This document shows positions 39,800 to 44,225 of a stretch of DNA of 64,000 nucleotides, piece after piece. This DNA is from Marixanthomonas sp. SCSIO 43207 (GTDB lineage Bacteria; Bacteroidota; Bacteroidia; Flavobacteriales; Flavobacteriaceae): contig NZ_CP063203.1 in NCBI RefSeq assembly GCF_019904255.1, positions 992,001 to 1,056,000 of the forward strand. The letters are read 5' to 3'. Position 1 is the first letter of the stretch. Every line of letters starts with the position of its first letter. The notes beneath the pieces are model-generated. The model did no database searches. It saw only the letters and a program-made list of their open reading frames with translations, and was not told the DNA's origin. A program made the position numbers and the translations under genes.

Positions 39800-40360
39800 T
39801 TAAAAAGAATAGCTATTTTTTGGAGTTACACAATAATGTAATGGAATATCAGTTTCTTCTGAAAGAATTATTTTTTCAGGTGGGAAAAATGATAGCCCAA
39901 CAAAAATAGTTTCTGAGTTACATCGTGCTAAAAACCGATCATAAAATCCCTTTCCGTAGCCTATTCGGTTGCCTTTTTCGTCATAGGCTAAAAGCGGAAT
40001 AAAAATAACATCCAATTGCTGTTCAGGAATTTCTATGCCATCTACGGGCTCTGGAATGCCAAAATTTGAAACTTTAATTACCGTGTTTTCTTGTAATAAA
40101 AAATGGGAGAGTTGGTTGGTTTTAAAATCAGATTTTGATACAACTATACTTTTATCTTTCCCTTGTAAAATGTGCATCAAATACTCGGTGTTTACTTCCT
40201 TTTTTGACTCAATAGGAAGAAAAATATGATAGTACGTTTTTTCCCAAATTGGCAATTTTAAAGCTTGGTTAGCCAATTGCAAACTTAAATCTTCAATTTC
40301 TGAAGAAGAAAGTTGTTCTCTACGCGTTTTATAAGTTTGTCTTAGTTGTGCTTTATTCAT
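39800..40360 (-). CDS. 5-formyltetrahydrofolate cyclo-ligase
   Basis: A 186-residue enzyme that converts 5-formyl-THF to 5,10-methenyl-THF with ATP. NKAQLRQTYKTRREQLS is the N-terminal helix and FIPLLAYDEKGNRIGYGKGFYDRFL (about 130-160) the conserved nucleotide and substrate loop. Length is typical. Its ATG overlaps the stop of the aspartoacylase-like gene (TAATG), making it the last gene of the RimB-RimK operon. Confidence 0.92.
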   Translation of the reverse strand: MNKAQLRQTYKTRREQLSSSEIEDLSLQLANQALKLPIWEKTYYHIFLPIESKKEVNTEYLMHILQGKDKSIVVSKSDFKTNQLSHFLLQENTVIKVSNFGIPEPVDGIEIPEQQLDVIFIPLLAYDEKGNRIGYGKGFYDRFLARCNSETIFVGLSFFPPEKIILSEETDIPLHYCVTPKNSYSF

Positions 40361-41361
40361 TAAAAATCTTCTTGCTCTGTTTCGGTAATTGTAGTGTTTT
40401 CAGTTGAAATATGAAATATAGCATCACCTTGATAGATAATAGGTGATTGATTTACGTTAATAATGTAACCATCATTAGGCGAAAGCACCTTAAAGCGCAT
40501 AGTTCCATAAGGGTCTGTAATGGTTGCTAAAAACTCACCTTTGACTACGTGTTTGTGACAAGGCACTTTTACGTGTAATAATCCGCTTTTTTGCGCACGT
40601 AACCACTTGCTTTTTTCAATAAGTACACTTTTTGTTTCAGTTGTAGGAACTTCAAATGAATCTTGAAGCATATCAAGATGTTTTAAAACACGTAGAATAC
40701 CGTGAACGCCGTGCTTGGCAATTTGTTTGTCACTTTCTAGTGATTTTCCGCCTTCAAATAGAAGAGAAGGAATGTTTAAATCGTGACACGTTGCGCGGTA
40801 TGATTTTTTTAATAAATCGGAAAAAACAATAAAAGGTGGATTAAAAACTTTAGCCAATTCTAAAAGCTTTGTATCATTAGGTTGAACTCGTATCTGTGCT
40901 GCATTAAATCTACTGGCACCTCCGGTATGAAAGTCTAAACAATAGTCTGCGTAAGGTACAATTTCTTTGGTAAAATGATACGCTACTCGACTGGCTAATG
41001 AGCCATGTTTGGTACCCGGAAATTTTCGGTTTAAATCTTTTCCATCTGGAAATTCACGTTGGGCATTTAAAAAGCCAAAAATATTTAAAATAGGAATACA
41101 AATAATGGTTCCGCGTTTTGGGCGGTTCATTTTCTTGGCAATAAATTGCCTTACAACCTCCACACCGTTAATTTCATCTCCGTGGATTCCTGCTGTTATT
41201 AAAACGGTAGGTCCGGGAACTGCAGCTCGTTCTACAATTACCGGAATTTCAATTTTAGTAGATGTATAAAGCTTAGCAATACTAAAGTTGAGTGTTTTGC
41301 TTTCGCCAGGACTTATCTTGGTGTTAAGTAGTATTAAATCTTCATTTTTGTATTCCGTCAT
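40360..41361 (-). CDS. succinylglutamate desuccinylase/aspartoacylase family zinc hydrolase
   Basis: A 333-residue M14-fold amidohydrolase. Zinc ligands are His60 and Glu63 (ITAGIHGDEINGVE) and His145 (CLDFHTGGASRF); DLNRKFPG (109-116) contains the substrate-binding Arg and LLFEGGKS the catalytic Glu. Residues about 240-325 form a barrel-like C-terminal domain. The family removes acyl groups from amino acids or hydrolyses C-terminal peptide-like bonds; the true substrate here is unknown. It lies 2 nt downstream of a RimK ligase and is coupled to the cyclo-ligase, so action on a glutamylated product is a reasonable guess. Confidence 0.88.
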   Translation of the reverse strand: MTEYKNEDLILLNTKISPGESKTLNFSIAKLYTSTKIEIPVIVERAAVPGPTVLITAGIHGDEINGVEVVRQFIAKKMNRPKRGTIICIPILNIFGFLNAQREFPDGKDLNRKFPGTKHGSLASRVAYHFTKEIVPYADYCLDFHTGGASRFNAAQIRVQPNDTKLLELAKVFNPPFIVFSDLLKKSYRATCHDLNIPSLLFEGGKSLESDKQIAKHGVHGILRVLKHLDMLQDSFEVPTTETKSVLIEKSKWLRAQKSGLLHVKVPCHKHVVKGEFLATITDPYGTMRFKVLSPNDGYIINVNQSPIIYQGDAIFHISTENTTITETEQEDF

Positions 41362-41363
41362 AC

Positions 41364-42236
41364 TTATACGTTTCGTTCAATATATTTTATGATGGTAGTA
41401 GCAATATCTTTTCCTGTGGCTGTTTCAATACCTTCCAATCCGGGGGAAGAATTAACCTCCAAAATCAACGGTCCTCTGTCTGATTGCAACATATCAACCC
41501 CAGCAATGCCTAATCCCATAGCTTTGGCAGCTTTTACAGCAGCTACTTCTTCTTCGTCACTAAGTTTTACAACAGTTGCGCTACCACCTCTGTGCAAATT
41601 GGACCGAAATTCTCCTTCTTTTCCTTGACGTTTCATGGCACCAACTACGTGGCCATCTACTACAAACGCTCTAATGTCTGCTCCGCCGGCTTCTTTTATA
41701 TATTCTTGAACGATAACCCTTGCTTGTAAATTGTTAAACGCCTCAATAACAGACTCTGCCGCTTTTTTAGTTTCGGCTAGAATAACCCCTATTCCTTGTG
41801 TGCCTTCTAATAGTTTTATAATAACAGGAGCACCGCCAGCTTGTTCTACAATCTCTTTGACGTTTTTTGAATAGTTGGTGAAGATAGTTTTCGGCAACCC
41901 CAATCCTGCTCTTGATAAAATTTGCAAACTACGTAACTTGTCACGTGAGCGCACCAGTGCCATAGACTCGGTAGTTGAAAAAACGCGCATCATTTCAAAT
42001 TGACGTACAACGGCTGTACCATAAAAGGTTACAGATGCACCAATACGAGGAATCACTGCATCGGTGTCTGAAAGAGGCTTACCTTTATAATATACCAATG
42101 GATTTTTTTTCTCAATAACAATATCACACTTGGTGTGGTTTATTATTTCTACTTCGTGCTTACGCTTTTGTGCTGCTTCTACCAGGCGTTTAGTAGAATA
42201 CAATCCTGCATTGGCCGAAAGGATCTTTATATTCAT
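41364..42236 (-). CDS. rimK: RimK-type ATP-grasp alpha-L-glutamate ligase, copy 1
   Basis: A 290-residue ATP-grasp ligase. [22 protein letters not shown] starts the N-domain; [27 protein letters not shown] (about 132-158) is the ATP-binding region; [17 protein letters not shown] and [21 protein letters not shown] carry Mg-binding residues. E. coli RimK adds glutamate to the C-terminus of ribosomal protein S6. ATGA overlap with the RimB-like gene upstream shows coupling. A second copy lies at 43353-44225. Confidence 0.92.
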
Positions 42237-42661
42237 TTTTGTTTTGCTTTGAGTTTTTGCGATAGATTAGTCTTATTGATATCTACAACAAATTTTTTAG
42301 TTAAAAAATTGCGTCCCAATAATACGGGAAATTTCATTTCCTTTCGGTCGCTTAGGGTTAAAAATATAGGATGTTTTTTTCCGAATAATATAATTTCAGT
42401 GTGTATTCTATACCGAGTTTGTGCTTCGCCATTACTACTTTTCACCACTTTTACATCATATTGATCAAAAATAAACTCTTTATTGTGATACTGTGGATGT
42501 TCTTCATCAAGAAAACGACATTTTAAGTAGTCATTCTCTACGGTAACATCTGTACAATGAATGGAAGATGTAAATGCTCCTGTATCAATTTTTACTTCAA
42601 TATCTTCAAGTTCTAGTTTTGGAAAATCTGCTTTATCTATTCGGCCTATTTTTCGTTTCAT
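42233..42661 (-). CDS. RimB-like retropepsin-type protease (ATP-dependent zinc protease family)
   Basis: A 142-residue protein. Residues 20-37 ([18 protein letters not shown]) show the D-T-G-A core of a retropepsin-like aspartic protease (Asp26), and [18 protein letters not shown] is the C-terminal flap-side motif. Database family PF05618 calls these ATP-dependent zinc proteases, but the sequence looks aspartic. Pseudomonas RimB is encoded next to RimK and modulates S6 modification. It is first of the four-gene operon, overlapping rimK by 4 nt. Confidence 0.87.
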
Positions 42662-42691
42662 ACATTTAAATTAATGGTGTTAATACTCCAT

Positions 42692-43246
42692 TTATAATTG
42701 TTTAATTATGGCGCAAGGATTTCCGTAGGCTAAAACATTGCTAGGAATATTTTTAGTAACTACACTACCTGCACCAATAGTAACATTGTCTCCAATGGTT
42801 ACACCCGGAAATATAACCGAATTACCTCCAATCCATACATTGTCTCCTATGATTACTTCTTTTGATGAGGTTAAATACCGCGTTTGGTTGTCTTCTTTTA
42901 TAATTCTATCTGAAGCTTTTAAAGGGTGACTCGCAGTATATATTTGAACATAGGGTGCTATGAGTCCATTTTTCCCAATAGATATGTAGTTATTGTCCAA
43001 AAACATACAATTGGTGTTTATAAATGTATTTTTACCTATTGATATGTTTTCTCCATAATCACAGAAAAATGGGGTTTCAATCCACACACCGGCTTCTTTT
43101 ACTTTAAATAATTCGGTTAAAATTGCGTCGCGTCTTTCGGTTAATTCTGAATCAAGGTTATTATACTCTTTTAATAATTTTCGTGCTTTGTGGTACATTT
43201 TCAATAATTCAGGATCTCTAGAATTATAAAATTTACCGGCGAGCAT
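42692..43246 (-). CDS. hexapeptide-repeat sugar O-acetyltransferase (Maa/LacA-like)
   Basis: A 184-residue left-handed beta-helix acetyltransferase. MLAGKFYNSRDPELLKMYHKARKLLKEYN is the Maa N-terminal domain; SIGKNTFINTNCMFLDNNYISIGKNGLIAPYVQIYTASHP has the catalytic His, and VIIGDNVWIGGNSVIFPGVTIGDNVTIGAGSVVT holds the hexapeptide repeats. Acetyl-CoA-dependent acetylation of a sugar is expected. ATG at 43246 is chosen over 43291. It lies between the two RimK genes. Confidence 0.88.
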   Translation of the reverse strand: MLAGKFYNSRDPELLKMYHKARKLLKEYNNLDSELTERRDAILTELFKVKEAGVWIETPFFCDYGENISIGKNTFINTNCMFLDNNYISIGKNGLIAPYVQIYTASHPLKASDRIIKEDNQTRYLTSSKEVIIGDNVWIGGNSVIFPGVTIGDNVTIGAGSVVTKNIPSNVLAYGNPCAIIKQL

Positions 43247-43352
43247 TTTTTGTTTTTCAGTCAAAATAAAAAGAATTACTATACAAAACAATATACTAAA
43301 AACCTTTATGAATAAAGAGGTAACACGTGGTTTTAAGTTTTATTTAAAAAGG

Positions 43353-44225
43353 TTACCGTTTGTTTCGTTCTATATAACCAATAATACTTTTTGAAATGTT
43401 TTTTTGTGTGGTTTTTTCAATCCCTTCCAGTCCGGGAGTTGAATTTACTTCCAGCACCAGAGGACCTCTTTCAGATTGTAAGATGTCCACGCCACAAACA
43501 CCCATCTTTAATGCTTTGGCAGCTTTTATGGCAAGTGCCTCCTCTTCATAATTTAACTGAATACTTTCTGAAGTGCCACCACGGTGCAAATTGGACCTAA
43601 AATCACCGGCCTTGCACTGCCTTTTCATTGCAGCTACAACAACCCCATCTATAACAATCACACGTAAATCTGCTCCTTTTGACTCTTTAATATATTCTTG
43701 TAACACAAATTTTTGTTTTGCTGCTACTAAGGTTTCAATAATAGGATGAGCTTCTTTTGAGTTTTTTGCCAATATTACACCTTGACCATGTGTTCCTTCC
43801 AAAAGTTTAATAATCAAAGGGCTTTCACCAAAAATGGCAACCTGTTGAGCCGATAAGTATGGATTTATCAAAACAGTATGCGGAACGGCAACACCTGCTT
43901 TTGAAAGAATTTGAAACGAAGTCCATTTATCTCGAGAGTTTAATATTGCTTGTGCCGAAACAATACTGAACACATCCATTGCTTCAAAATGCCGTACTAG
44001 TGAAGAACCGTAGTAGGTGTTTGAAGCTCCTACCCGTGGAATCACAGCGTGCAAATCATCTACCTTTTCATCATGATAAAATAAGGTAGGATTGCCGTTT
44101 TGAATACTCAATCTACAATACGTAGGGTCAAGCACTTCCATAGCGTGGTTGCGCTTTTCACCTGCTTTTAATAAGCTTTGTGTAGAGTATAAATGAGATC
44201 CTCTAGAAAGAATGGCTATATTCAA
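43353..44225 (-). CDS. RimK-type ATP-grasp ligase, copy 2
   Basis: A 290-residue paralogue of the RimK at 41364-42236, alignable without gaps over most of its length. [68 protein letters not shown] and LVLEVNSTPGLEGIEKTTQKN match the same ATP-grasp sites. Differences cluster in the N-domain and strand edges, so the acceptor may differ. Its own glutamate-ligase role is inferred. No promoter box of the exact type is seen before it. Confidence 0.9.
   Translation of the reverse strand: MNIAILSRGSHLYSTQSLLKAGEKRNHAMEVLDPTYCRLSIQNGNPTLFYHDEKVDDLHAVIPRVGASNTYYGSSLVRHFEAMDVFSIVSAQAILNSRDKWTSFQILSKAGVAVPHTVLINPYLSAQQVAIFGESPLIIKLLEGTHGQGVILAKNSKEAHPIIETLVAAKQKFVLQEYIKESKGADLRVIVIDGVVVAAMKRQCKAGDFRSNLHRGGTSESIQLNYEEEALAIKAAKALKMGVCGVDILQSERGPLVLEVNSTPGLEGIEKTTQKNISKSIIGYIERNKR

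Follow-up and report, generated by a model that had tools for sequence, protein, structure and literature searches.

A conserved RimB-RimK-AspA operon in Marixanthomonas sp. SCSIO 43207 as a candidate poly-alpha-glutamate write-cut-trim module

The window analysed here is a stretch of 64,000 nucleotides (nt) of Marixanthomonas sp. SCSIO 43207 (positions 992,001 to 1,056,000 of contig NZ_CP063203.1), whose genome, a single contig of 2.96 Mb, was searched as well. According to the open reading frame (ORF) list and the DNA, six genes follow one another on the minus strand: the RimK-type ligase RimK2, a Maa acetyltransferase, RimB, a second ligase RimK1, a hydrolase of the AspA/AstE fold (AspA), and 5-formyltetrahydrofolate cyclo-ligase (MTHFS) (Table 1). 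RimB and RimK1 overlap by 4 nt, RimK1 and AspA are separated by 2 nt, and AspA and MTHFS overlap by 1 nt. A preliminary description, made from the letters of the window, had given the first two of these spacings, the coupling of AspA to MTHFS and the hexapeptide acetyltransferase between RimK2 and RimB, and the ORFs and the DNA bear out all of them. The Pfam cut-offs of PF05618, RimK/Rimk_N, PF24827 and PF01812 were all exceeded. Since promoters of Bacteroidota differ, a sigma-70 scan of the region was uninformative.

Table 1. Genes of the RimK2-to-MTHFS region, with positions counted from the first letter of the window.
Feature	Position	Strand	Remarks
RimK2, second RimK-type ATP-grasp ligase	43353..44225	-	TTG start, 290 aa; RimK 201 bits (Pfam)
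Maa-type hexapeptide acetyltransferase	42692..43246	-	ATG at 43246; ORF reaches TTG 43291
RimB-like retropepsin, DTG motif	42233..42661	-	142 aa; PF05618 68.5 bits
RimK1, alpha-L-glutamate ligase	41364..42236	-	290 aa; NF007764 381 bits
RimK-linked AspA/AstE-fold hydrolase	40360..41361	-	333 aa; PF24827 124.4 bits (cut-off 25); proposed oligo-/di-glutamate trimmer
5-formyltetrahydrofolate cyclo-ligase (MTHFS)	39800..40360	-	TIGR02727 125.5 bits, over cut-off

The part of this operon most worth testing is AspA, which its sequence assigns to a family of zinc hydrolases that take an acyl group off amino acids with a free carboxylate. Its structure model (predicted local distance difference test score, pLDDT, 90) matched 3cdx (Z 35.1), DoeB (34.3) and CphZ (26.7/26.5), and gave Z of about 17-19 with AstE and aspartoacylase and 15.8 with CCP5; the predicted fold sits in the AspA/DoeB group, with CphZ as a more distant relative. 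In 112 of 112 aligned AspA sequences, among which are unlinked orthologues and, at least once, the same genome under two handles (L060, L201), H60, E63, H145, E203, N111, R112, R102, R158, R189 and R255 were invariant, confirming that His60, Glu63 and His145 are intact, as the preliminary description had it. R158, R189 and R255, which are suggestive of an acidic substrate, align with N, F and M in 3cdx. AspA scored below every NCBIfam equivalog cut-off listed, and on this ground we rejected the idea that it is a genuine AstE, aspartoacylase or DoeB. Identification as a CCP-like deglutamylase by fold was rejected as well, the similarity being general to M14 and not distinctive.

RimB (model pLDDT 92) has the PF05618 domain, the DTG motif and a predicted retropepsin fold, matching the DUF785 protein 2pma (Z 17.0), RloA2 (Z 16.8) and HIV-1 protease (Z about 9). 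With 65.4 bits it did not reach the NCBIfam equivalog NF052261 (cut-off 200), so it is domain, context and fold, rather than that model, that make the protein RimB-like. For the ligases, the S6--L-glutamate ligase equivalog NF007764 (cut-off 331 bits) gave 381.0 bits with RimK1, above the cut-off, and 288.7 bits with RimK2, below it; RimK proteins also matched the cofactor ligases MptN and CofF under the cut-offs of those models. RimK1 is 90% identical to the RimK of Aequorivita echinoideorum and aligns gap-free over residues 1-289 with the three top-ranking RimK chains of solved structure (7qyr, 7qys, 5zct). RimK2 is indeed an upstream paralogue, but its alignment with RimK1, described earlier as gap-free, has two columns gapped in one of the two proteins. 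Among the polyglutamate-contacting residues reported in PMC10092738 (S7, R8, S14, R64, S68, R189, N262), RimK1 keeps 6 of 7 (A8 differs) and RimK2 all 7; S14, R64, R189 and N262 were kept in 110 of 110 aligned RimK rows.

The gene neighbourhood was followed through a phylum sample of 118 genomes, 34 of which carry PF05618. RimK (NF007764, at least 285 bits) and strong AspA (PF24827, at least 94 bits) were compared across 54 genomes, namely these 34 and 20 from among the 84 that lack PF05618. In each of the 34, a RimK above the cut-off lay next to RimB or was fused to it, and 4 of the 20 had a RimK of 285-306 bits, the range of RimK2. Five of the 33 fetched loci were RimBK fusions, none with an adjacent AspA. 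AspA lay beside RimK in 22 of the 28 unfused loci, or 23 of 29 counting the window; in G041 a contig end interrupts RimK, and AspA comes after a RimK fragment on another contig, which would give 24 of 29. The remaining five unfused genomes had AspA elsewhere (three) or not at all (two). AspA also directly followed RimK in three of the four RimB-less RimK genomes, G064, G088 and G107 (100% complete; no PF05618 match). Overall, 35 of the 38 RimK-bearing genomes had strong AspA, against 1 of the 16 that lack RimK (Fisher p 1.4e-9, kinship ignored), and the lone exception, G095, carries a paralogue 28% identical to the window AspA. The genes flanking the trio vary between families. RimB-RimK-AspA is conserved far beyond close relatives; the loss of conservation that would have spoken against a write/erase module did not occur, and the proposal of a conserved module is supported by its gene neighbours. 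Of the four-gene order that the preliminary description proposed to look for across Bacteroidota, conservation was found for these three genes, and MTHFS beside AspA was seen in Flavobacteriaceae-type loci only. In 14 Balneolaceae-type loci (f21; L054-L063, L065-L067, L069), a gene of 112-116 aa follows AspA, a possible fourth member.

A scan with the AspA alignment found at least 579 relatives, and the best 80 loci from named genomes were read, neighbours being counted by BLAST with the window proteins. Because BLAST could miss a divergent RimB, the PF05618 profile was run on 33 of these genomes (the 18 that lack an adjacent RimK and the 15 whose locus has RimK-AspA without RimB). In 62 of the 80 loci RimK was the gene immediately upstream of AspA, and 47 of these loci contained RimB as well. 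The other 18 genomes had a RimBK fusion elsewhere (15), a separate RimB-RimK pair elsewhere (2) or a RimK fragment at a contig edge beside AspA (L170), so RimK was present in 80 of 80 genomes, once as this fragment only; the meaning of that count is limited because the loci were selected by similarity to a RimK-linked AspA, and the phylum sample is fairer. Eight of the 15 RimK-AspA loci without RimB belonged to genomes with no PF05618 match (several being metagenome-assembled genomes), and in the other 7 RimB or RimBK lay at another place in the genome or beyond a contig break.

AspA relatives also occurred in 578 plasmid records, and 11 of the 25 listed matches were examined. The full trio was present on plasmids of Vibrio europaeus, V. 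nigripulchritudo, Phaeobacter, Salinivibrio, Acaryochloris and Photobacterium DA100, and a Photobacterium GJ3 plasmid had RimK-AspA with no RimB match by BLAST; no RimK lay beside AspA on the Legionella lytica, Haloarcula, V. parahaemolyticus and Deinococcus plasmids. The two Vibrio trios are arranged RimK-AspA-RimB, the remaining four RimB-RimK-AspA. As two gene orders occur, the linkage is more than a single arrangement passed on by descent.

Some relatives deserve separate mention. The L. lytica AspA (L212:3498-4523) has K, Q and Q at the H60, H145 and E203 sites and is probably catalytically dead, and the V. parahaemolyticus relative (L214:3468-4540) is split over two overlapping ORFs, with no RimK match in the fetched stretch. 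A different AspA subfamily adjoins a protein of 474-479 aa (L253:434-3825, L245:2722-5114, L249:1418-3798), for which the two members tested had no Pfam match; in G064 this subfamily also lies beside a glutathione-synthetase-type ATP-grasp protein. As a raw tally, ion-handling genes were seen within about 3.5 kb of all five annotated plasmid trios (L207-L211), including mechanosensitive channels (3 of 5), Mg transporters/CorA, ZntB and a cation:proton antiporter.

In a tree of 110 RimK rows, the window RimK2 fell into a clade of 8 rows with 100/100 support, together with the second copies of three Aequorivita loci (L127-L129) and the loci L130, L132, L157 and L162. In the last four, from genomes without a PF05618 match, RimK2 alone precedes AspA and MTHFS. 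RimK-AspA pairs persist where RimB is absent, and the window RimK2 belongs to such a group; it looks like an old paralogue able to run with AspA alone. RimK2 may serve another acceptor, as the preliminary description proposed, but because RimK2-type ligases directly precede AspA in these four RimB-less loci, AspA probably acts on the products of both RimK1 and RimK2. Two further clades (100/100 each) comprised the 6 rows of a RimB-less group of Tenacibaculum type and the 5 rows of RimBK fusions, and the RimK2, Tenacibaculum-type and fusion clades all have long branches (0.77, 1.19 and 0.94). The long branches of the RimB-less clades and the fusions (L039, L040, L043-L045) could mean that RimK changes less where it has to contact a separate RimB. 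Elsewhere in the genome of the window, L003:1084-2942 contains a third RimK-like ATP-grasp protein (342 aa) and a gene overlapping it that resembles, by eye, an N-formylglutamate amidohydrolase, which would presumably make another ligase-amidohydrolase pair.

Taking these results together, we favour, with moderate confidence, a reading of the operon as a poly-alpha-glutamate write-cut-trim module. The chemistry of RimK and RimB is taken by analogy from papers on Pseudomonas and E. coli, and we infer the substrate and cleavage direction of AspA and the nature of the acceptor. RimK1, and RimK2, would add L-glutamate in alpha-linkage, as free chains or on an acceptor, which, if there is one, would be other than a canonical acidic S6 tail. 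RimB, as a dimeric retropepsin, would then cut within chains of about five or more Glu. Stubs and short oligomers are to be expected, because Pseudomonas RimB, which cuts RimK-made polyglutamate from S6, is reported to require about five or six consecutive Glu (PMC11957791, JBC 2025). That RimB removes polyglutamate, as the preliminary description proposed, was known beforehand from this work, and the RimB/RimK half of the module is already known biology. On this reading, an exo-acting hydrolase would be the missing step after RimB, and AspA could fill it by trimming what RimB leaves, releasing glutamate residues from the C terminus. In genomes that lack RimB, erasing would fall to AspA by itself, and in the present genome AspA would be shared by both ligases.

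Several points weigh against this reading. AspA is absent from 2 of the 29 unfused RimB-RimK genomes (G002, G085) and 1 of the 5 fusion genomes (G057); a further 3 unfused and 4 fused genomes have it away from RimK. The RimK content of the 80 named loci is not unbiased. CphZ is not the best fold match of AspA, seven entries, including 3cdx and DoeB (Z 34-35), scoring higher, and R158, R189 and R255 also occur in the unlinked Haloarcula relative. The RimK systems of Pseudomonas and E. coli have been described without AspA in the RimK/RimB papers searched.

The acceptor question turns on ribosomal protein S6, for which 40 genomes and then a further 28 were searched; in 2 of the latter no S6 turned up. 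The S6 of the window genome ends in KAKA (RRNRNNKQKAKA; longer C-terminal stretch ...WAEKRRNRNNKQKAKA), with no terminal Glu or Asp. None of 37 RimB-bearing Bacteroidia had an S6 ending in D/E (0/12, two being fusions, plus 0/25, for which class was taken from record titles, that of L131 giving the phylum only). The preliminary description had named S6 as the RimK target and expected a Glu-rich C-terminus of rpsF; the tail is not there, S6 is a doubtful target in this organism, and we rejected it as an acceptor through an encoded acidic tail. This absence agrees with the idea that RimK reversibly glutamylates another, putative protein, with AspA as its deglutamylase. Alternative targets, and RpsF proteins without terminal Glu, are raised in the discussion of PMC11957791, and the long branch of the RimK2 lineage is what a changed acceptor might produce. 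Against it, the same paper reports that RimK makes poly-alpha-Glu without a protein acceptor. We regard such a protein target as possible and no more than that.

The S6 data bear equally on canonical ribosome modification, in which RimK would glutamylate S6 whatever its encoded tail, and RimB and AspA would reverse it. RimK1 does pass the S6-ligase cut-off, and outside the class of the window S6 ended in D/E in 12 of 15 RimB-bearing genomes (11 of 14, plus Balneolaceae L201). In several Bacteroidia, G076, G111 and L188 among them, acidic residues stand one to four positions short of the S6 terminus, and one of the four RimB-less RimK genomes, G064, has an S6 ending in EEE. Against this stand the KAKA end and the count of 0 in 37; moreover, the acidic tail is partly a lineage trait, because the S6 of the RimK-negative G003 ends in EEE as well. 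We consider the canonical explanation improbable here.

Less probable still is that AspA is a metabolic N-acyl-amino-acid deacylase merely co-transcribed with the ligase: DoeB, a deacetylase, is its closest characterised match in sequence and fold, but the RimK linkage extends over three phyla and two gene orders and survives the absence of RimB. That RimK extends folate or pterin with alpha-linked Glu, which AspA trims beside a functionally linked MTHFS, is very improbable: MTHFS adjoins AspA in 45 of 80 named loci and the sub-cut-off MptN and CofF matches fit, but 13 of the 45 (12 counting the L170 fragment) have no RimK beside AspA, and no MTHFS adjoined AspA in the fetched phylum-sample loci outside the family of the window or on the plasmids read. 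The adjacency is probably without functional meaning, and MTHFS is unlikely as a functional partner. The Maa acetyltransferase is probably incidental too; the RimK2-RimB gap in the three Aequorivita loci is only 53-303 nt, too small for it, and in the window the listed TTG at 43291 probably lies ahead of its real start, the ATG at 43246 being the alternative. As neighbours of RimB-RimK-AspA, MTHFS, Maa and the RimK2 close by are specific to particular lineages.

AspA is a conserved and little studied third partner of RimK, and for a large bacterial class the default annotation 'S6--glutamate ligase' is not to be trusted as it stands. RimK neighbourhoods with peptidases are reportedly discussed in the amidoligase paper of Iyer et al. 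(2009), where prior notice of the trio is quite possible. Our literature search found no description of a RimK-AspA operon, by term look-up rather than over full texts: 'aspartoacylase' had 0 occurrences in PMC10092738, PMC4741518, PMC11957791 and PMC12239564, and 'desuccinylase' 0 in these four and PMC7343187, so that AspA is unnamed in the RimK/RimB papers as far as these terms reach. We advance only tentatively the wider idea that RimK, RimB and AspA form a complete, S6-independent, cyanophycin-like poly-alpha-glutamate cycle, with 'S6 ligase' a misannotation across Bacteroidia. In such a cycle an ATP-grasp ligase would build the polymer, a retropepsin would cut it and a CphZ-like hydrolase would recycle it, and the polymer would serve ion, osmotic or glutamate buffering.

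Among known systems, Pseudomonas RimABK/RimBK (PMC11957791) shares a RimB endoprotease and a RimK ligase in one operon, and the poly-alpha-Glu chemistry. In contrast, the present operon has AspA in the third slot and a second RimK, and its S6 lacks the acidic tail. The operon has no RimA phosphodiesterase gene (GGDEF was searched genome-wide, EAL was not), and GGDEF had no match in the window genome, nor in 26 of 28 genomes searched (exceptions G037 and G109), although two of the plasmid trios (L207, L209) have GGDEF genes no more than 3.5 kb away. Because its own genome has no GGDEF match, Pseudomonas-type control of RimK by cyclic di-GMP is unlikely here and that arm is probably absent.

The cyanophycin depolymerase has a fold unrelated to that of RimB. 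CphA1-cyanophycinase-CphZ (PMC10206079, PMC12661447) likewise combines an ATP-grasp polymerase, a depolymerase and an AspA-family hydrolase finishing to free amino acids, and an AspA-annotated 'cyanophycin dipeptide hydrolase' is reported to complete the breakdown of that ATP-grasp-made polymer (PMC10206079). The monomers and the bond differ, CphZ is distant in sequence (profile E 7.8e-5), and with respect to its beta-Asp-Arg specificity the window AspA is a fold relative only. With AstE, aspartoacylase and DoeB (PF24827), AspA shares the fold, the zinc ligands, the N-R pair and the catalytic Glu, and differs in lying under all their equivalog cut-offs and, from 3cdx, in R158, R189 and R255. 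The eukaryotic deglutamylase CCP5 shares the carboxypeptidase-like fold and is no closer to AspA than the other M14 carboxypeptidases listed.

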